Origin: Arthrobacter sp. KBS0703
GTDB taxonomy: Bacteria > Actinomycetota > Actinomycetes > Actinomycetales > Micrococcaceae
Assembly (NCBI RefSeq): GCF_002008315.2
Contig: NZ_MVDG02000001.1
Coordinates: forward strand, 4,216,001-4,280,000
Length of the DNA: 64,000 nt
Direction: 5' to 3'
In this document: piece by piece, positions 39,238 to 57,034 of the stretch
How positions within the stretch are numbered: the stretch's first letter is position 1
Layout: the number at the start of each line of letters is the position of its first letter
Position numbers and translations under genes: made by a program
Notes under the pieces: model-generated
Databases searched by the model: none
Told to the model about the DNA's origin: nothing
The model's input: the letters and a program-made list of their open reading frames with translations, nothing else

Positions 39238-39361
39238 GGCCCCAATGTACTCCGGACCGGTAACCGGCAGGCGCGGAAACTCCCGGATTGTGACACCTGC
39301 CCCCGGTCTTCCGGGGCCGTCCCGGTGTAAACTGGATCAGCCCACAAGGGCAGATTTATTA

Positions 39362-39487
39362 CGACAGGGGAGCGCCACCGTCGGGGATCACTGGCAACTG
39401 CCAGCCGAACCGCGGATGGGCGCTGAGAGTGCGGACAGCCGCAGACCCTCGAACCTGATCCGGCTAGTACCGGCGCAAGGGAGTCGA
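39362..39487 (+). promoter_or_regulatory. TPP riboswitch (THI element)
   Basis: The THI-box core is complete: GGCGCTGAGAGTGCGG-like sequence at about 39419-39433 and ACCCTCGAACCTGATCCGG at about 39444-39462, closed by a P1 stem formed by the flanking acaggggagcgcc and ggcgcaagggagtc. It lies about 80 bases upstream of ykoE, so the transporter operon should be shut off by thiamine pyrophosphate. Confidence 0.95.
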
Positions 39488-39569
39488 GTTCTCAAAGTGT
39501 CCGGCAGCTGGCGGCCCAACCACCCGCAGCCGGGGAGCGCTTTCCCCTCCTGTTCCTCAGGAGGACATT

Positions 39570-48060: not shown

Positions 48061-50668
48061 GGCCGGATCCTGCCGGCACGTTGCCGCCGCCGGTTGGTCT
48101 TCCACCGGTGCGCCGTGCCCATCACCCGTGTGCACACCGCCCAGTAGGCCACGCCGGCGGCAAGCGATGCCGCCACGGCCAGGGCGGGGCTGATCCCGGC
48201 CAGCGGAGGGTAGACCAGCCAGTGGACCAGGTACGTGTAGAGCGAGGCGCTGGCCAGCAGCATGGTCAGGCGGCCGAAGACCTTCGGCACCGGCAGGGTT
48301 GGCAGCCAGATGAGCAGCAGGATCCCCGCGACCACCGTAAGCTCCCGGGTGGCATTCTCGAAGAAACCGGGAACCGTCGCGGCGGCAAGGGCAGACACGA
48401 CGCAGCGCTGAACCGCGGTCCGGGACCGCGCGACGGCCCAGCCCAGGGCGAAGAGCCACAGGGCGGGCGCGGTGTGCGGCACGCCGGGATCAACCAGCTC
48501 GTAGCGCGTGAGCAGCCCTGCCCCGGTGAGGACGAGCGGGAAGAGCAGCGGAAGGCGACGCTCGGCGCGGTGCACCCAGGGAATCGCGAGCAGGGCGGTC
48601 ATGCCCGCAAGCAGGTAGACAAGCACCTCAATGAACCAGAAGTGCCACTGGGTGGTCACCGCCTCCGGCCCGATGACGGCGTTGAGGAGCACGATGTTGG
48701 CGAGGCTGTACCTGTCGGTGATGAGGTAGGCGAACGCGATGAACGCCATGCTGGGGACCACCACCCTGGCCAGGCTGGCAAGCTGCCGCCGGAGCCGGGG
48801 CAGCTGTTCCCCGGACAGCTGGAACCGCGCGAAGTTGTAGCCGGCCACCGCCATGAGCACGTGGGCTGTCCCCTGCCAGCTGAAGAATCCGACGTGCGTG
48901 CTGACGATCAGCACGATCGACACAGCCCGCAGCACGATGCTGGTTTCCAGCGGCACCAAGAAGCGCCGCATCTTCCGCCCCGACACACTGCTCCGCCCCG
49001 GCAGGCTGCGCTCCGGCACATCGCGCAGTCGCGGTTCCAGGTCCCGGACAGGGGTGACGTGCCAGTCCTGCGGGAGGTGCCCCAGCGCCTGTTCCAGCCT
49101 GACGGACGCCGCCACATAGGACAGCGAGTCCCCGCCCAGCGAGACGAACGTATCGCCGGGCGCGATCTCCGTGAGCTCCAGCGTGTCCTGGAAGATGCTG
49201 AGGACGTTGTCGGGCCCGGCGGCGGCCCCCGAAGAGCTCGCCGCCGGCTCAGTTCCGGGCCGGTTGCTGTGGGACACGCCGTTTCCGGACAGCGCAAGGA
49301 CCGCCGGATAGTCCAGTTTGCCGGTGGCCAGGCGGGGGAGATGCTCGACGGCGTGCAGCTCAAGTGCCGCCCGGGGCCTGGCTCTTATACACATCTGCGC
49401 GAGGACCTTGGCCAGCAGGTGCGTGTCGTGGTCGCCCTCGACGGCGACCACGACGCCCTGGTCGGTGCCGGCGCTCGCCGCCTGCACGCCAAGGCCGGCC
49501 AGGATCCGTTCCACCTGCCCGAGGTCGACCCGGAGCTGTCTCTTATACACATCTAGATGTGTATAAGAGACAGGCCCACCACTTCGTAGACACCGGCGGG
49601 ATGCCTCCGGGCGAGGTCGCCGGTGCGGAGTTCGCTGATGGTCCTGGCCGCGGCGAGGTCCGCAGGGCTCTCGGCGTACCCGAGCATGACGTTGGGTCCG
49701 GTGTAGACGAGTTCGCCGTGCTCCAGGCCGGGCACGGGGTCGATGCGGAACGCCCCGCCGGGCACGGGAACGCCGATGGAACCCGGGACCGTGGCTGCCA
49801 GATCGGGAGGAAGGTAGGCCATCCGGGCCGTGGCCTCCGTCTGGCCGTACATCACGAAGAGTTCCCAGCCGCGCCGGCGGCCGAGCCCGGCGTAGCTTTG
49901 CACCATCTCGGGTGCGAGGCGGCCGCCGGCCTGGGTCACGTAGCGCAGGCTGGGGAGATCCATCTCAGCGAAGGCGACCCGTTCCAGCAGCTCAAAGGTG
50001 TAGGGAACGGCCGCGAATGACGTCGCCCGGCGGCTGCGGAACAGTTCCCAGAAGCACGGATCAACCACGGACAGGTCCGTGAGCACCAGGCCTGCCCCGC
50101 GGAGCAGGTGGCTGTTGATCACGGACAGCCCGTAGCAGTACGACATCGGCAGGGTCGTGGCCGCGCGGTCATCCGGGCCGATGTTCAGGTACCCGGCAAT
50201 GGACTCCGCGTTGGCCTGCAGGTTGGCGTGGGACAGGCGCACCAGTTTGGGGGAGCCCGTGGAGCCGGACGTGCTGAGCATGAGCGCAAGGTCCGGGTGC
50301 AGCTCGTGCCGGGTGCCGGGGCGGCGCTCCTCCAGCACGGGCTGCCCGTCTCCGGAGCGCAGAATGACGTCGGGCTCGTAGGCCGCAACGATGGAGTCCA
50401 GGGCTGCGGGTTTGTCCTCCGGCAGGAGGATCAGCGGGTGGCCGGAGACTAGGGCCGCCAGGTAGGCGATCAGCGAATCGACGTCGTTGGCGGCGGCCAA
50501 CGCCACCAGGCGCCGCTCGGTGCCGAGCCGGAGCGCGAGGGCATCGACGCGGTCGGCAAGCTCCCGGTAGGTCAGGGCGAAGTCGCCGGCGAGGATGGCG
50601 GGCCTGTCCCCGTGGCTCGCAAGATCCGAGGCAAAGGACACCCGCTCGAAATCGAGCTGTGTGGTCAC
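48048..50668 (-). CDS. adenylation - carrier - membrane acyltransferase fusion, split by adapters
   Basis: One gene from GTG 50668 to the stop at 48048, about 870 residues. Residues 1-370 are an AMP-binding (acyl/aminoacyl adenylating) domain: LMLSTSGSTGSPKLVRLSHA, VMYGQTEATARMAYLPPDLA, GELVYTGPNVMLGYAES, and A10 PRLATGKLDY after the junction. A carrier domain follows, with the phosphopantetheine site VSLGGDSLSYVAAS. The last 370 residues are an acyltransferase-3-type membrane domain with about 10 helices (STHVGFFSWQGTAHVLMAVA, TTQWHFWFIEVLVYLLAGMT). Adapters interrupt at 49536-49573 and 49378-49396; excising the first restores the frame, but the A8 hinge residues are absent. Its promoter carries an iron box. 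It is probably a one-protein system that activates an acid, holds it as a thioester and passes it to an acceptor at the membrane. Confidence 0.85.
49378..49396. other. half Nextera adapter (19 bp, one mismatch)
   Basis: ctggctcttatacacatct differs from the 19-bp mosaic end ctgtctcttatacacatct by one base and is followed directly by native-looking sequence. It replaces a few codons between the carrier-proximal C-lobe segments of the adenylation domain. Confidence 0.9.
49536..49573. other. Nextera mate-pair junction adapter (assembly artefact)
   Basis: A full 38-bp palindrome, splitting the adenylation domain after VYEVVG. The 139 bp between this and the half adapter at 49378 are a small separately joined piece. 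Confidence 0.97.
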
Positions 50669-50740: not shown

Positions 50741-51949
50741 TTAGATCTGCTTGAGTGCCTGCTCCAGGTCACCGATCAGGTCCTCGGGATCCTCCAGCCC
50801 CACCGACAGGCGCACCACGCCGTCGCTGAGGCCGATGGCCGCCCGGCCCTCCGGGCCCATGGCCCGGTGCGTCGTTGTGGCGGGGTGGGTGATAAGGGAC
50901 TTGGCGTCGCCCAGGTTGTTGGAGATGTCGATGATCTTCAGGGCATCCAGCAGCGCGAAGGCGGCGGCCTTGCCGGACTGGCCGGCCGTCGTCGCGAGTT
51001 CCAGCGTGAGCACGGTGCCGCCGGCCTTCATCTGCTTCGCGGCCAGCTCGTACTGCGGGTGGGACTTCAGCAGCGGGTACTTGACCCAGCTGACAGCGGG
51101 CTGGTCCTCGAGCCATTCGGCGAGGCGCAGCGCTGTGGCCGACGAGTGGTTCACGCGCAGGGCCATGGTTTCCAGGCCCTTGGTGAGCACCCAGGCGTTG
51201 AACGCGGACAGGGCTGGCCCCGTGTGGCGCATGAGCTGCTTGACCGGTCCGTCGATGAATTCCTTGGTGCCCAGGATCGCCCCGCCCAGGACCCGGCCCT
51301 GGCCGTCGATGTGCTTGGTGCCGGAGTAGACGATCACGTCCGCGCCGAGCTCGCCGCAGCGCTGGAGCAGCGGGGTGGCAAAGACGTTGTCGACGACGAC
51401 GGTGGCTCCCGCGGCATGGGCCAGTTCGCTGACCGCGGCGATGTCCACGATCTCCTGCATGGGGTTCGACGGCGATTCGAAGAACACGGCCGTGGTGGGC
51501 CCCGAGAGGGCCTCGCGCCACTGGTCCAGGTCCGGTCCGTCAACGAACACCGTCTCCACGCCCCAGCGCGGCAGGATCTCGTTGAGGATCACGAAGCAGG
51601 AGCCGAACAGCGAGCGGGCCGCCACCACGCGGTCCCCGGCGGCGAGCAGCGCGCCGAGGGCGGTGAACACGGCGGACATGCCGGACGCCGTCGCAAAGCA
51701 CGCTTCGGTGCCCTCCAGCAGGCGCAGACGCTCCTGGAAGGTGGCCACGGACGGGTTGCCGTAGCGGGAATAGACGAAGCGTTCGTCCTCGCCGGTGAAG
51801 GCGCGCTCGGCGGCGGCGGCGGATTCATAAACGAACCCGGAGTTCAGGAACACGGGCTCCGTGGTTTCCTGGAAGTTGGTACGGTCCAGCCCGCCGCGGA
51901 CGGCCTGGGTCTCCGGGCTCCAGCCTGCGGCGTCTTGATTGAAGGTCAC
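50741..51949 (-). CDS. metZ: O-succinylhomoserine sulfhydrylase
   Basis: A 402-residue PLP enzyme of the Cys/Met metabolism family. MetZ makes homocysteine directly from sulfide and O-succinylhomoserine. The signature VIVYSGTKHIDGQGRVLGGA carries the PLP-binding Lys. Other family motifs are RYGNPSVATFQERLRLLEGT, FFESPSNPMQEIVDIAAVSE and GDAKSLITHPATTTHRAMG. It starts one base after the rhodanese stop and belongs to the three-gene operon behind the SAM-IV-like riboswitch. Cystathionine gamma-synthase is the main alternative, but the length and the N-terminal FQETTEPVFLNSGFVYESA favour MetZ. Confidence 0.92.
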   Translation of the reverse strand: MTFNQDAAGWSPETQAVRGGLDRTNFQETTEPVFLNSGFVYESAAAAERAFTGEDERFVYSRYGNPSVATFQERLRLLEGTEACFATASGMSAVFTALGALLAAGDRVVAARSLFGSCFVILNEILPRWGVETVFVDGPDLDQWREALSGPTTAVFFESPSNPMQEIVDIAAVSELAHAAGATVVVDNVFATPLLQRCGELGADVIVYSGTKHIDGQGRVLGGAILGTKEFIDGPVKQLMRHTGPALSAFNAWVLTKGLETMALRVNHSSATALRLAEWLEDQPAVSWVKYPLLKSHPQYELAAKQMKAGGTVLTLELATTAGQSGKAAAFALLDALKIIDISNNLGDAKSLITHPATTTHRAMGPEGRAAIGLSDGVVRLSVGLEDPEDLIGDLEQALKQI

Positions 51950-52360
51950 TTAGTTCTTTCCCACGTTCGTTGGCAGGCCGCGGTTCTTCCAGCCGTTGAC
52001 GGTGCGCTCGCCGTAGCGGTCCGGCTCGCCCTCGAAACCCTCAAGGACGTTGTAGGCCGTGAAGCCGGCCTGCGTGGCGGCGATGGCGGCGGCGATGGAG
52101 CGCTGGCCCGAACGGCACAGGAAGATGAGCTCCACCGCGGTGTCCTCGGGGGCCTGCTGCTTAAGCTGCTCGATGAAGTCGCGGTTGGGGATGCCGCCGG
52201 GGAAGGTCCACTGGATGAACAGCGGGTCGTTCTCCGTGGCCTTGGTGTCCGGAATGCCGATGTGGGCCCACTCGCCCTCGGTGCGGACGTCCACCAATAT
52301 GGCGCCCTGCTCCAGCTTGGCCCACGCATCCGGCGGGGTCAGGTCTCCGGCGTAGCTCAT
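51950..52360 (-). CDS. single-domain rhodanese-like sulfurtransferase
   Basis: A 136-residue rhodanese domain. The active-site loop is LCRSGQRS, with the catalytic Cys that carries a persulfide; the entry motif is AILVDVRTEGEW. Actinobacteria often place this gene directly before metZ, where it may deliver sulfur or trap sulfite/cyanide. The start overlaps the DUF1737 stop by ATGA, and the stop abuts metZ, so the three are translationally coupled. Confidence 0.92.
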   Translation of the reverse strand: MSYAGDLTPPDAWAKLEQGAILVDVRTEGEWAHIGIPDTKATENDPLFIQWTFPGGIPNRDFIEQLKQQAPEDTAVELIFLCRSGQRSIAAAIAATQAGFTAYNVLEGFEGEPDRYGERTVNGWKNRGLPTNVGKN

Positions 52361-52665
52361 GCGTGCCCCTCGAATGCTTCGGCGTTGAGGTCGTCGTCCG
52401 AGTCCAGCCGGTCCACGGCCGTGGCCACCGCGGCGTCGGCGCTGGCGATGGCGGCGGGCAGCACAAGGGCCTGCGCCACGATCACATTGATGCCGTTGTA
52501 CGCGGCGGCGGGGCTGCCGTGCAGCACGTACCCCTCCGCCAGGGCCGTGGAGATGCGCTCACAGAAGGTGCGGTCGTCCGGGCCCGTGATCAGGCGGTAG
52601 GACAGTTTTTCCTCAGGTTGGTCCTGCGGGGACGGCAGGGTTGTGCCGGCGGGGGCGTCCGTCAT
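52357..52665 (-). CDS. DUF1737 protein, first gene of the metZ operon
   Basis: A 102-residue protein. The DUF1737 block is clear: LSYRLITGPDDRTFCERIST followed by EGYVLHGSPAAAYNG, a small alpha/beta unit found in many bacteria with no known function. A Pro/Thr-rich N-terminus and an Asp-rich C-terminus surround it. It begins at ATG 52665 and opens the SAM-regulated operon with rhodanese and metZ, so a link to sulfur metabolism is plausible. Confidence 0.85.
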   Translation of the reverse strand: MTDAPAGTTLPSPQDQPEEKLSYRLITGPDDRTFCERISTALAEGYVLHGSPAAAYNGINVIVAQALVLPAAIASADAAVATAVDRLDSDDDLNAEAFEGHA

Positions 52666-52694
52666 GACGGATCTCCTTCTCTCACGCTTGCAGC

Positions 52695-52795
52695 TCGAAG
52701 TGGTCGATATGCCGAGTATTCACCTGAGGCACCCCGCCGCGAAAGGGAGGGTTGCCGACCGGCCAGTCAGGGCTTGGCGCCGGTTCTCATTACTC
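52695..52795 (-). promoter_or_regulatory. SAM-IV-like riboswitch
   Basis: Read towards the metZ operon, conserved segments of the actinobacterial SAM-IV class appear in order: ATGAGAACCGGCGCCAAGCC, then GGCCGGTCGGCAACCCTCC, then GGCGGGGTGCCTCAGGTGAA. The element ends about 30 bases before the DUF1737 start codon, a distance that allows control of translation. S-adenosylmethionine should reduce expression of the operon. The classification comes from remembered consensus, not from a covariance search. Confidence 0.8.
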
Positions 52796-52868: not shown

Positions 52869-52927
52869 ACGCGGGGTCACTTACGGCCCAATCGAGGCTG
52901 CGGAAGCGGCCGTAAGTGACCCCGCGT
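52869..52927. repeat. perfect 20-bp inverted repeat between divergent sulfur operons
   Basis: The left arm acgcggggtcacttacggcc (52869-52888) and right arm ggccgtaagtgaccccgcgt (52908-52927) are exact complements with a 19-base centre. It lies about 80 bases before the monooxygenase start. It may be a protein-binding operator, a cruciform or a member of the palindromic repeat family seen elsewhere (cattt/cactt-acggccc core). Confidence 0.85.
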
Positions 52928-53004
52928 CGCGGTAACAATGCCGCCGCCCGGGAGGATAATGACGGGAGATGAACCACCGTAACGCCGGATGAAACCAGGC
53001 AACA

Positions 53005-54333
53005 GTGAACGAGTCGAACCGCAATACAGTCAGTCCCATGCTGCACTTTGGATGGTTTGTGGGCCACGGTTTCGGAGTCCAGGGCTGGGGGACGCCGGGC
53101 TACGGGATCGGATACGACTGGAAGAAACCCGCGCTGTACCAGCACGCCGTGCGGGAGTTCGAGCGGGCGGGCCTGGACCTGTTCATCATCGAGGACTCCC
53201 TCACGGTGCCGGACACGTACGGCGGCAGTGCCGAGGTGTCCCTGGCGCAGGCGTCCTTTGCCCCGAAGCACGATCCGCTCGCGCTGGTGCCGTACCTGCT
53301 GTCCGCCACGGAGCACCTCGGGATCGTGCCCACCGTCAGCGCCTCCTTCTACCCGCCGTTCACCGCGGCCCGGCTCCTGGCCACGCTGCAGCACCTCTCC
53401 AACGGGCAGCTCGGCTGGAACGTCGTGACCTCGGGCAGCGACCTGGCCGCGCAGAACTTCGGCCTGGACCAGCAGATCGAACACGACCTCCGGTACGAGA
53501 AGGCGGAGGAGTTTGTGGACGTCGTGCGGAAGCTCTGGCGCAGCTGGGCGCCGGACGCCATCGTGGAGGACGCCGGGGCCGGGATCTTCGCGGACCATAC
53601 AAGGGTCCACCCCATCAACCACAGCGGCGAGTTCTTCAAGGTCCGCGGCCCGCTGAACACGGCACCGCTGCCGGAGGAGCCCGTGCTGGTGCAGGCCGGC
53701 GCCTCCCCGCGGGGCAAGGCCTTCGCCGGAGGCAACGCGGACGTGGCGATCGCCCTGGCCCGCGGTGCCGACGGCATGAAGGCGTACCGCGACTCCATCC
53801 GCTCCGAGGCCGCGGCCGCCGGCCGGAACCCCGACGACGTCAAGGTCCTCTTCGTCCTCAAACCCACGGTGGTGGGATCCCGGGCCGAGGCTGAGGAGCT
53901 CCGGGCCGCGCGCCGGGAGCTCACGCAGCGGGACATCGACAGCCAGCTCAACTCCATCTCCTACCTCTCCGTGATCGATTTCAAGCAGTTCGACCTCGAC
54001 GCACCGCTCCCGGAGCTCACCACCAACAGCAACCAGGGCACCCTGGACCACTTCGCCAAGTCCGGTCCGCCCGGCTCCACGCTGCGCCAGCTCCTGCAGG
54101 CCAGGAGCGGCGGCGCGGGCGACAGCATCATCGGCACCGCCGAGGAAATCGCCGACCACCTTGAGGAGACCGGGGCGGCGGTGGGCGGGGACGGCTTCCT
54201 GTTCTCCGGCTTCGTGGACCCTGCCACCGTGCACGGCGTGCTGGACAAACTGGCGCCGGTGCTGCGCCGCCGGGGGCTGCTCCGCACAAGCTACGGCGAC
54301 GGCGGGTTCCGCCGGAACCTGCTGGACTTCTAG
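53005..54333 (+). CDS. NtaA/SnaA/DszA-type flavin-dependent monooxygenase
   Basis: A 442-residue two-component LLM monooxygenase. Family motifs are GFGVQGWGTPGYGIGYDWKK, FIIEDSLTVPDTYGG, the long QLGWNVVTSGSDLAAQNFGL block of the NtaA subgroup, LVQAGASPRGKAFAGGNADV, and the C-terminal DGFLFSGFVDPA. Such enzymes take FMNH2 from a separate reductase and oxygenate C-N, C-S or similar bonds (nitrilotriacetate, dibenzothiophene sulfone, dimethyl sulfide). No reductase gene is nearby. The GTG at 53005 begins a three-gene operon with the lyase homologue (4-bp gap) and the PLP enzyme. The substrate is unknown; a sulfur compound is suggested by the context. Confidence 0.88.
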   Translation: MNESNRNTVSPMLHFGWFVGHGFGVQGWGTPGYGIGYDWKKPALYQHAVREFERAGLDLFIIEDSLTVPDTYGGSAEVSLAQASFAPKHDPLALVPYLLSATEHLGIVPTVSASFYPPFTAARLLATLQHLSNGQLGWNVVTSGSDLAAQNFGLDQQIEHDLRYEKAEEFVDVVRKLWRSWAPDAIVEDAGAGIFADHTRVHPINHSGEFFKVRGPLNTAPLPEEPVLVQAGASPRGKAFAGGNADVAIALARGADGMKAYRDSIRSEAAAAGRNPDDVKVLFVLKPTVVGSRAEAEELRAARRELTQRDIDSQLNSISYLSVIDFKQFDLDAPLPELTTNSNQGTLDHFAKSGPPGSTLRQLLQARSGGAGDSIIGTAEEIADHLEETGAAVGGDGFLFSGFVDPATVHGVLDKLAPVLRRRGLLRTSYGDGGFRRNLLDF

Positions 54334-54337
54334 CGCG

Positions 54338-55988
54338 ATGGACGGGGCCAGAGCTTCCGAAGACCTCCGGCCGGGCACTCGGCCGGCTGCTTTCCTGATC
54401 GGCACGGCGCATATCCGGGCGGAGGAGGTGGCCAGGGCCGCGGCGGATCCGGCAGTCGAGGTTGTCCTGAGCGCCGACGCCCTGGAGCTGATGGGGCTGT
54501 CCCGCGATGTGGTCCAGGCGGCCATCGACTCCGGCCACAAGGTGTACGGGCTCAACACCCTGCTCGGCTCCGGCCGGGACACCGCCGTCGAGGAGGCATC
54601 CATCCTCGACTACCAGATCCAGGTGATCCGGTACCACCACAGCGGCGTGGGAGCACTGCTGGCCCGCGACGAGGTGCGCGCCGTGATCCTGACCAGGCTC
54701 ATCGGCTTCACCCGCGGCGGTTCGGGAGTCCGCCCGGACACGGCCCGGTTCTATGCCGAACTGCTCAACAGGGGGGTGGTTCCGGCCATTCCGCGTGACG
54801 GTTCCGTGGGCTCATCGGACCTGACGCAGCTGGCCGCGGTGGCCGCCGTCGCCATCGGCGAAGGGCAGGCGCTCGCAGAGGACGGCACCGTCGTGACCGG
54901 TGCCGAGGCGCTCGCCCGGGCAGGGTTGGAACCGCTGGTCCTGGCACCGGGCGAGGCCCTCGCGCTGGTCAGCGCCAACGCGTACTCCATCGGCGCGGGC
55001 GCACTCCAGTTCGGCCGGCTCCTGCGGCTCGCCGACCTCGCAGACACCGCGCTCGCGCTGTCCCTGGAGGCCACCGCAAGGTACGACGGCGGCGGGAACC
55101 TCAGCCCGTTTTCGCCTGCGGTGCAGGCGGCCAAGGCCGTGGACGGCCAAAGGGTTTCGGCCGCCAAGGTCCGGTGCCTGCTGCGGGGCGGCTGGCTGGA
55201 GGACCCGCGGCGCGAAGCCTCGGTGCAGGACGCCCTGTCCTTCCGCGCGGCACCGCAGACGCACGGGGCGTTCAGGGCCCAGGTGACGGCGCTCGCCGAG
55301 GCGCTGGAGGTGGAACTCAACGGCCGCGGCGACAATCCTCTGACGGACCTGGTGTCCGGCCGGATGGTCTCCGGCGGAAATTTCCAGCCGATGCAGCTTG
55401 CCCTGGCCTTCGAAGCGCTGCGGCTGGGACTGGCGCACGTGGGGATCAGCAGCGAGCGGCGGATTGCGAAGCTCTATCCGCCGCAGCGGCTTATCAGGCA
55501 GCTCAACCTGGAGGCCGCGCGGAGCGGCACCCCGCTGGCGGCCGAGGACCTTCCCGGCCTGCTGTGGTATTCGGCCGCGGGGCTGCTGGCCGAACTCAAG
55601 TTCCTCGCCGCCCCGGCAACGCTCGGCGCCCCGACCCTCTCTGCCGACGTGGAGGACCACTCCACCCTGGCGCCGCTGGCCCTCCAGCAGCTGGAACGGG
55701 CGGTGGAAACCGCGGGAAGCTGCTGACCATCGAGGCATTGACGGCCGCGTACCTCCTGGCCGAGGCGCAGGGCGCGGAGGCCGGAGGAAGCCAGTCCGCG
55801 GGCGAGGCGAGGCCGCTCGGCAGGGGACGGGCGCCGTCGTCGACCGCCTCGCCGTGCTGCTGGCGGAACAGTTGCCGGCGGCGGTGTTGGCTGACAGGGC
55901 CAGGGACGAGCTGGGGGAGCTGATTTCCGGGCTGCCCGAGCTGCGCACGCCGGCCCCCGAGGACGACGATGTGAGAGGAGAGGCATGA
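54338..55988 (+). CDS. aromatic amino-acid lyase homologue without MIO triad; two frame errors
   Basis: A protein of about 550 residues with the fold of histidine/phenylalanine ammonia lyases: YGLNTLLGSGRDTAV, a middle VSANAYSIGAGALQF, LNGRGDNPLTDLVSGRMVSG and GNFQPMQLALAFE. In true HAL/PAL the region GSVGASGDL cyclises to the MIO cofactor; here it reads GSVGSSDL, one residue shorter and without Ala-Ser-Gly. MIO-free lyases such as ergothionase exist in this superfamily. Near 55715 and 55825 one G appears missing in short G-runs; restoring both joins RKLLTIEALTAAYLLAEAQ to GTGAVVDRLAVLLAEQLPAA, and the gene then ends at 55988, overlapping the next ATG. It is the middle gene of the monooxygenase operon. 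Confidence 0.75.
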
Positions 55989-57034
55989 GCACCGTGACCG
56001 GCCAAAACCGGCCGCCCAGGCATGCGGCGCCCGCGCTGGACCTTGCGGCCGACGCCGGGGCTGTCCTGGCGCAGGTGGGCAACACGCCCCTGGTCCCCCT
56101 GGACGTTCTCAGCCGCGGGCTGGGCAGCAAGGTCTTCGTGAAGCTGGAATCGGAGAATCCCGGCGGCTCCATCAAGGACCGGACCGCGCTGAGCATGGTC
56201 CGGGCGGCCGAGCGCAGCGGGCAACTGCAGCCCGGCGGAACCATCGTGGAGAGCACGTCCGGGAACACGGGGATCGGGCTGGCGCTGATCGGGGCGCTGA
56301 CCGGCCATCCGGTGGTGGTGGTGACCGGAGACTCCATTTCCGCCGAAAAGCTGGAGCTGCTGCACCGGTACGGCGCCCGCGTGGTGTTCACGGACTGGAC
56401 CGCACCCTCGGATTCGCCGGCCAACGCCAGGGCCGTCGCCGCCCGCATCACCGCGGAAACGCCGGGAGCCTGGCGGCCACTGCAGTTCGACAACCCCGCC
56501 AATCCGCAGGCGCACTACGAGGGCACCGCTCCCGAAATCTGGGAACAGACGGCCGGAAGGGTGACGCACTTCGTGGCCGGAGTGGGAACCGGCGGCACCA
56601 TCACCGGGAACGGCCGGTACCTGAAGGAGAAATCGGCCGGGCATGTGGAGGTGATCGGCGCGGACCCGTACGGCTCGGTGTACAGCGGCGGGCACCCGGG
56701 CCAGATCCTGGTGGACGGCGTCGGCAATTCCTGGCCCAAGCCGGACTGGCCGAGGGTCTTTGACCGCAGCCTGCTGGACCGGTTCCTTCGGATTCCCAAC
56801 GACGAGGTGTACACCACCGTGCACCGGCTTCTCAACGAGGAGGGCCTGTCCCTGGGGCCGTCATCCGGGCTGACCGTGGCAGCGGCCCTCCGGGTGGCGC
56901 GGGCGGCGCCGCACGGGTCCGTGGTGGTGGCCATAGCCCCCGACACGGGCAGCAACTACCTGAGCAAGGCCTTCAACCCGGAGTGGCTGGCGGACAACCA
57001 CATCCGCCTTGCCACGGACACTGCCGAGGACTGA
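55985..57034 (+). CDS. PLP-dependent cysteine synthase-like enzyme
   Basis: A 349-residue fold-type II PLP enzyme (CysK/CysM/CBS core). VGNTPLVPLDVLS is the N-terminal signature; ENPGGSIKDRTAL carries the PLP Lys; STSGNTGIGLALIGALTGH is the substrate loop; VAGVGTGGTITGNGRYLKE binds the phosphate. The first 30 residues are an extra tail. It does not match CysK length (about 310), and the loop VYSGGHPGQI with HRLLNEEGLSLGPSSGLTVA resembles secondary CysK-like enzymes of biosynthetic or scavenging operons. A beta-replacement or beta-elimination reaction on a sulfur amino acid is expected. The ATG overlaps the end of the lyase gene. Confidence 0.88.
   Translation: MSTVTGQNRPPRHAAPALDLAADAGAVLAQVGNTPLVPLDVLSRGLGSKVFVKLESENPGGSIKDRTALSMVRAAERSGQLQPGGTIVESTSGNTGIGLALIGALTGHPVVVVTGDSISAEKLELLHRYGARVVFTDWTAPSDSPANARAVAARITAETPGAWRPLQFDNPANPQAHYEGTAPEIWEQTAGRVTHFVAGVGTGGTITGNGRYLKEKSAGHVEVIGADPYGSVYSGGHPGQILVDGVGNSWPKPDWPRVFDRSLLDRFLRIPNDEVYTTVHRLLNEEGLSLGPSSGLTVAAALRVARAAPHGSVVVAIAPDTGSNYLSKAFNPEWLADNHIRLATDTAED

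Follow-up and report, generated by a model that had tools for sequence, protein, structure and literature searches.

Lyases of the HAL family are usually defined by a self-made MIO cofactor. Ergothionase (Treponema denticola, 6s7j) is an ergothioneine trimethylamine-lyase (ETL). The monooxygenases DmoA, DszA and YxeK are described as cleaving C-S bonds in excerpts of a published account (PMC10863075). Breakdown of S-(2-succino)cysteine is the role of the Bacillus yxe operon and, according to excerpts of a second report, a lyase stands in for the monooxygenase in some yxe loci (PMC9706529), which gives lyase chemistry a precedent in yxe-like loci. Here a three-gene set is described from a window of 64,000 nucleotides (the whole stretch of DNA analysed) of Arthrobacter sp. 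KBS0703. A search of the open-access literature on this set found nothing; the sequence-only reading had recognised no known pathway.

A conserved three-gene unit

Three genes were found on the same strand where the sequence-only reading had placed a three-gene operon:

MOX, 53005..54333, + strand, FMN-dependent two-component monooxygenase (NtaA/DmoA subfamily), with ATG 53038 as likely true start
LYA, 54338..55988, + strand, MIO-less lyase of the HAL fold (PF00221)
CYS, 55985..57034, + strand, PLP-dependent beta-replacement enzyme, catalytic domain alone

In the window the start of LYA at 54338 is 4 bases past the end of MOX, as had been claimed. The claimed ATGA overlap of LYA with CYS (55985-55988) is valid only in the frame of the 550-residue homologue P0001, the LYA frame of the window being broken. 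The frame opened at 54338 ends at a stop at 55726 and is separated by two one-base gaps from the frame ending at 55988; relative to locus L049, single bases are absent near 55714 and 55822. LYA reads through in P0001, P0002, P0006, P0018 and P0031 (550-551 aa). The otherwise near-identical P0030 contains a translated Nextera adapter at the second break and Nextera adapters occur at five places of the window; thus, the frame breaks are probably assembly errors.

Conserved synteny had been proposed as a check on the operon, and the survey of related genomes bore it out. MOX adjoins LYA in 41 of the 43 non-duplicate Micrococcaceae loci found by LYA, and CYS overlaps the end of LYA by 4 bases in 36 of the 43. 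With the nearest start codon taken, the gap between MOX and LYA was -1 to +18 in 40 of 41 loci, that of the remaining locus being not determined. Since both gap and overlap recur in relatives, the tight packing is not due to chance. All 21 Microbacteriaceae loci found by MOX also carry the triad, in the permuted order CYS-MOX-LYA, showing that gene order is not reaction order and overturning the earlier proposal that oxygenation, elimination and beta-replacement follow one another as the genes do. The dN/dS values of the three genes (0.06-0.17 in six comparisons) indicate purifying selection. MOX, LYA and CYS are a real unit conserved in two families. Occurrence is patchy, MOX being present in 29 of 299 Microbacteriaceae genomes. 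Spread by plasmid was considered and rejected, as no plasmid record reached 60% identity or covered 80% of the lyase.

LYA diverges faster than MOX (for example 72% versus 88% identity in L031), a finding in favour of an explanation in which LYA keeps an ammonia-lyase or other sulfur-free role and the cluster is no more than a relic of gene neighbourhood in the lineage. This explanation is very improbable in view of the identical three genes in two orders, the overlapping frames, the dN/dS values, and the 16 other loci with MIO-less lyases, where no MOX or CYS homologue lies alongside and which are therefore uninformative on the MOX step.

The MIO-free lyase

The assignment of LYA to PF00221 and the HAL fold upholds the earlier call of a lyase homologue, although not as an ordinary histidine or phenylalanine ammonia-lyase. 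Where MIO lyases have GSVG-ASG-DL, the loop of LYA reads GSVG-SS-DL; the MIO-forming Ala-Ser-Gly triad is absent in 64 of 64 loci, with two residues between Gly and Asp, as is also the case in the 120 best LYA homologues listed. Thus, the established way of forming MIO is closed to LYA and the ordinary ammonia-lyases are ruled out. LYA shares with HAL and PAL/TAL the fold and conserved Tyr, Arg and Glu residues, which we take to have active-site roles in HAL, and differs from them by the missing triad. The HAL His is missing in 6 of 17 aligned Microbacteriaceae copies.

The predicted structure of the LYA homologue P0001 (pLDDT 87.6) had ergothionase 6s7j as its top PDB match, with tyrosine aminomutase equal to it by Z. 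LYA and ergothionase have in common the HAL fold, a MIO loop shorter by one residue, S-x-N replacing N-G-T and an SFR-type motif, with exceptions to the latter two among the 17 Microbacteriaceae rows in L146 (N-T-N), L125 and L134 (SLR) and L132 (SVR). LYA may share its way of working with ergothionase. The differences are an identity of 26% in the structural alignment and the location of LYA in an operon with MOX and CYS. Chain index 383, presumably one of the published ergothionase catalytic residues, is Lys in ETL and three of four plasmid relatives (four of five rows of the ergothionase clade) whereas it is Tyr in the 23 aligned triad lyases. In a midpoint-rooted tree these 23 form one clade (100/100) that joins other actinobacterial MIO-less lyases at 92/94, and ergothionase with four proteobacterial rows stands apart (100/100). 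The tree and the lysine position rule out a plain ergothionase orthologue. A more distant MIO-less lyase is near genuine HutU and HutF genes (L047) or a HutI gene (L046) and near OpuAC-type importers, and an ergothionase-clade gene of Paracoccus adjoins hutU.

Monooxygenase, PLP enzyme and neighbouring genes

The score of MOX against TIGR03860 (375 bits, cut-off 279.7) places it in the NtaA/DmoA subfamily, with DmoA (6ak1) and DszA (5tlc) as nearest solved relatives; it also matches YtnJ, which we take to be CmoJ. Translation more likely starts at ATG 53038 than at GTG 53005, judging from the 103 of 120 listed homologues that start within a few residues of HFGW. MOX resembles DmoA, DszA and YtnJ in exceeding the subfamily cut-off and differs from them in falling in a group of its own, 62-95% identical to the window copy, in which no characterised member was seen.

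The nearest solved relative of CYS is the cystathionine beta-synthase Rv1077. CYS has the PLP motifs and an Rv1077-like catalytic domain in common with cystathionine beta-synthase and cysteine synthase, and the PLP lysine and GTGGT loop are invariant in 12 of 12 aligned sequences chosen by hand from the loci. It differs from these enzymes in consisting of the PALP domain only and in falling under the cut-off of all 25 NCBIfam models shown, among them the equivalogs for CBS (350.6 of 510.25), cysK (283.7 of 350.95) and cysM (270.9 of 394.2). CYS is the third paralogue in the genome, the others being 51% and 41% identical. A CBS-like paralogue beside two other genomic homologues would suit a biosynthetic pathway in which a thioether made by CYS is oxidised by MOX and then turned by LYA, through elimination, into an unsaturated product, as would the leading position of CYS in Microbacteriaceae and a transporter-like gene (MFS by eye, cluster 26) in nine Microbacteriaceae loci that could export the product. 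Biosynthesis is nevertheless improbable given the patchy occurrence of MOX and the importer and sulfate permease linked to the triad; breakdown fits the occurrence and the importer better. The sequence-only proposal of breakdown or synthesis of an unusual sulfur or nitrogen-heterocyclic amino acid is thereby narrowed, the enzyme types and sulfur setting being consistent with breakdown and synthesis fitting less well.

Adjacent to the unit, and outside it, are the following neighbours:

SAM-IV riboswitch of the divergent sulfur genes, 52679..52794, - strand, 87.6 bits
DUF1737 protein, 52357..52665, - strand
Rhodanese-domain protein, 51950..52360, - strand
MetZ, O-succinylhomoserine sulfhydrylase, 50741..51949, - strand, NF005870 756.5 bits (cut-off 618)

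The divergent riboswitch-controlled sulfur operon noted earlier is present, the riboswitch standing ahead of the DUF1737-rhodanese-MetZ genes, and MetZ and rhodanese clusters adjoin the triad in 39 of 46 Micrococcaceae loci. No such neighbours were seen next to the triad at L033-L036, L068 or L084, nor at the 21 Microbacteriaceae loci, of which L133 and L137 have only weaker MetZ-family matches (35%); therefore, the divergent genes do not belong to the unit. A SulP permease accompanies the triad in 13 of 46 Micrococcaceae loci, a count that includes three duplicates. The 21 Microbacteriaceae loci include an importer in 12, a sulfurtransferase-like protein in 7 and an MsuE-type FMN reductase in 4. 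These neighbours suggest a connection with sulfur. The importer is of the cystine-type ABC kind, with a score under that model's cut-off, and is not betaine-type. It is present in 19 of 29 genomes with MOX and 12 of 39 without, and was rejected as an exclusive marker of the triad.

The match of MOX to YtnJ, the importer and a GNAT acetyltransferase in 17 of the 21 loci recall salvage of S-conjugated cysteines as in Bacillus yxe/ytm, by which N-acetylation would precede oxygenation and C-S cleavage by MOX, LYA would eliminate a thiol or sulfenate from the conjugate, and CYS would remake cysteine or a thioether. The yxe operon has the same broad kind of monooxygenase, and the Microbacteriaceae loci add the importer and GNAT. 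However, the HAL-fold lyase and PLP enzyme are extra here, 2SL is a member of lyase class I (cd01334) rather than of the HAL family, and lyase and monooxygenase are present together. Inspection by eye of 10 gene lists revealed no NAC deacetylase. The GNAT gene is convergent and close to a gene that looks helicase-like by eye and occurs in 15 of 21 loci, and both GNAT and the importer lie outside the window unit. Salvage of this type is thus rather unlikely.

Proposed role and upstream elements

We favour, with a probability of about 0.5, a role of the operon as a sulfur-scavenging catabolic module that joins a MIO-free lyase to C-S cleavage by MOX and sulfur capture by CYS. The reactions, order and substrate that we infer are as follows. 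An S-containing amino-acid derivative that already has a good alpha leaving group would be taken up, via the cystine-type importer where linked. LYA would expel this group in an acid/base 1,2-elimination, just as trimethylamine is expelled by ergothionase, MOX would cleave a C-S bond with FMNH2 supplied by a separate reductase, and CYS would transfer the sulfur thus set free to an acceptor derived from serine, yielding cysteine or a thioether. Either the LYA or the MOX step could come first. A thio-betaine is the most likely substrate, with ergothioneine or a relative the first choice. Sulfur scavenging is supported by conservation of the three genes in two families despite the change in their order, by the missing MIO triad, motifs and top structural match shared with ergothionase, by the distant MIO-less lyases near Hut genes and OpuAC-type importers, by the proximity of MOX to the C-S-cleaving DmoA and DszA, and by the importer, sulfurtransferase-like, FMN reductase and SulP neighbours. 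It is weakened by the separate clade of the triad lyases, with Tyr for Lys and occasional loss of the HAL His, by the MOX-bearing Microbacteriaceae genomes that have no urocanate hydratase match, by the 16 other loci of MIO-less lyases that lack MOX and CYS homologues, and by an importer that is cystine-type and also present without MOX.

A more specific version is possible although doubtful: an undescribed aerobic sulfur route from a thio-betaine (ergothioneine or an S-methyl relative) in which the lyases, as a new MIO-free clade of the HAL fold, would free trimethylamine, a dedicated flavin monooxygenase would desulfurise the product, for example thiourocanate, and a dedicated PLP enzyme would capture the sulfur. 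Such a route would be an alternative to the hydratase/desulfhydrase route of Burkholderia. If scavenging is correct, the link of a MIO-free clade with a flavin monooxygenase and a PLP enzyme would extend the chemistry of the HAL fold, and a sulfur source would be named for common soil and leaf bacteria; with ergothioneine as substrate, the operon would illustrate how soil bacteria can recycle this thiol of fungi and bacteria. In 80 genomes compared with kinship ignored, urocanate hydratase (HutU) was matched in 18 of 29 MOX-bearing versus 8 of 26 MOX-free Microbacteriaceae, and in 11 of 11 MOX-bearing versus 12 of 14 other Micrococcaceae. This co-occurrence is weak, and a urocanate end product was set aside; HutU could not consume it in the 11 of 29 MOX-bearing Microbacteriaceae genomes where a match is missing.

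Upstream of MOX a tandem repeat is a candidate operator:

Candidate operator, 52960..52992, + strand, tandem repeat TRACGnnnGRTGA with a 20-base period

Of 41 distinct upstream regions from relatives, 16 contain both copies in perfect form, and among eight genomes searched the repeat is the sole perfect site genome-wide in G000, G008, G320 and G423. An inverted repeat at 52875-52921 was rejected as operator, its half-site occurring eight times in the genome and, among the upstream regions of relatives examined, only in L057. A further motif, a lead only since it was written after viewing the sequences, is GTAAY-n-GCAAC, which precedes CYS in 11 of 21 Microbacteriaceae loci compared with a mean of 0.12 and a maximum of 2 in 500 shuffles.

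Three successive genes in the window

The window carries MOX, LYA and CYS as three successive genes, all on the plus strand, which encode respectively an NtaA/DmoA-type FMN-dependent monooxygenase, a HAL-fold lyase without the MIO triad of residues (MIO-less) and a cystathionine-synthase-like PLP enzyme. The three genes together are referred to below as the triad.

53005-54333, plus strand: MOX, scoring above the NtaA/DmoA subfamily cut-off
from 54338, plus strand: LYA, PF00221
55985-57034, plus strand: CYS, PALP

Comparison with six relatives by the Nei-Gojobori method gave dN/dS values of 0.06-0.17 for MOX, LYA and CYS, the value for LYA being computed only as far as the first break in its frame. 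The LYA frame of the window ends at 55726. Two single bases are missing relative to L049, a locus in a relative, near positions 55714 and 55822. The 550-residue LYA homologue P0001 matches the window frame up to the first break and then continues into the ATGA overlap. The database protein P0030 contains a translated Nextera adapter located at the second break. The frame breaks are taken as probable assembly errors. Nextera adapters are also embedded at five sites in the window (3260, 26460, 49536, 58503 and 58791), in some cases within an open frame, as with the AMP-binding protein ORF at 49553, which has one at its end. The contig joins are unreliable at these five sites.

Conservation of the triad in two families

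A genome scan with P0001 yielded 38 loci which, with eight from genomes of the window's family, gave 46 Micrococcaceae loci, or 43 once three presumed duplicates (L029, L030 and L035) were removed, contigs of equal length being treated as duplicates. Since the loci were selected by LYA, only the counts of MOX and CYS are independent in this set. MOX was found next to LYA in 41 of the 43 loci, the exceptions being L066, which is truncated, and L080, where no MOX lies at that place. CYS and LYA are on the same strand in 42 loci and overlap by four bases in 36 when the nearest start codon is used. The one exception in strand is L068 from Arthrobacter sp. H-02-3, in which CYS lies apart from MOX-LYA on the opposite strand; the surroundings of this locus include further luciferase-like and acyl-CoA-dehydrogenase-like genes.

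Family f4 was represented by 299 genomes, of which 29 matched the MOX query. The family is called Microbacteriaceae here because G852, one of its genomes, encodes a protein 100% identical to P0182 from Leifsonia. The order CYS-MOX-LYA on a single strand was found in 21/21 loci drawn from the MOX-matching genomes, a count that covers 21 of the 29. Since MOX was the selection criterion here, independence holds only for the counts of LYA and CYS.

Neighbouring genes and upstream repeats

Among the 46 Micrococcaceae loci, MetZ was found near the triad in 39, an AhpD-like protein in 19 and a SulP permease in 13; the search for the SAM-IV riboswitch, present at 52679-52794 on the minus strand, covered the window alone. 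The 21 Microbacteriaceae loci include a GNAT protein in 17, an amino-acid importer in 12, a mercaptopyruvate sulfurtransferase-like protein in seven and an MsuE FMN reductase, above its model cut-off, in four. The best model for the importer permease is cystine, with a score under the cut-off of that model. The importer binding protein was present in 19/29 Microbacteriaceae genomes with MOX versus 12/39 without it.

Upstream of MOX the sequence TRACGnnnGRTGA is repeated in tandem at a period of 20 bases. Of the 41 distinct upstream regions compared, 16 carry two perfect copies, among them the regions of L033 and L036, which belong to a second genus and have diverged surroundings. The remaining 25 have at most one perfect copy; these include the Paenarthrobacter group, in which a diverged form is still present as judged by eye. 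When eight genomes were searched allowing at most two mismatches, the repeat was found at the triad in five and was absent from the three Microbacteriaceae genomes, and the only sites away from the triad were two overlapping two-mismatch matches in genome G320. Two further elements were located in the window:

39356-39499, plus strand: TPP riboswitch
52875-52921: inverted repeat GGTCACTTACGGCC...GGCCGTAAGTGACC

The genome contains eight occurrences of the half-site of the inverted repeat, and a pair with identical spacing is found three times; the element is a dispersed repeat.

Candidate substrates of the triad and of other MIO-less lyases

The triad fits a role in sulfur scavenging, with an activated S-containing amino acid as the source. 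Ergothioneine is a candidate substrate favoured by the class of the lyase, ergothionase being a trimethylamine lyase that is MIO-less like LYA. Counting against it are the replacement by tyrosine of the lysine found in the ergothionase clade, the type of importer, and the absence of HutU from 11 of the 29 MOX-bearing Microbacteriaceae genomes; the main rival is an S-conjugated cysteine. Ergothioneine is nevertheless kept as a candidate, since the carbon skeleton may be left unused by organisms that scavenge sulfur.

Neither MOX nor CYS was matched (E 1e-5) in any of 16 loci with other MIO-less lyases, over 8-20 kb per locus. Two of the other lyase regions have histidine-utilisation genes and OpuAC-type importers nearby:

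L046, 9236-10834: MIO-less lyase, near imidazolonepropionase (HutI) and OpuAC-type importer proteins
L047, 10198-12009: MIO-less lyase, near formimidoylglutamate deiminase (HutF), urocanate hydratase (HutU) and OpuAC-type importer proteins

The urocanate hydratase of L047 scored 930.6 bits with the hutU model and did not reach the cut-off of any thiourocanate hydratase model. The Hut genes and OpuAC-type importer proteins at these two loci suggest histidine betaine as the substrate, and the lyases are candidate histidine-betaine (hercynine) trimethylamine lyases. In Paracoccus saliphilus an ergothionase-clade gene adjoins hutU, with a sulfate-exporter-like gene approximately 8 kb away.

At L040 (6878-9563) the MIO-less lyase gene is convergent with genes judged by eye to be aromatic ring-cleavage-like and aldolase-like. 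At L151 (8929-10569 and 13244-13912), from Sinorhizobium meliloti, the MIO-less lyase does not have the ergothionase lysine; an ABC importer is encoded nearby, as is a protein with the annotation dimethylsulfoniopropionate lyase.
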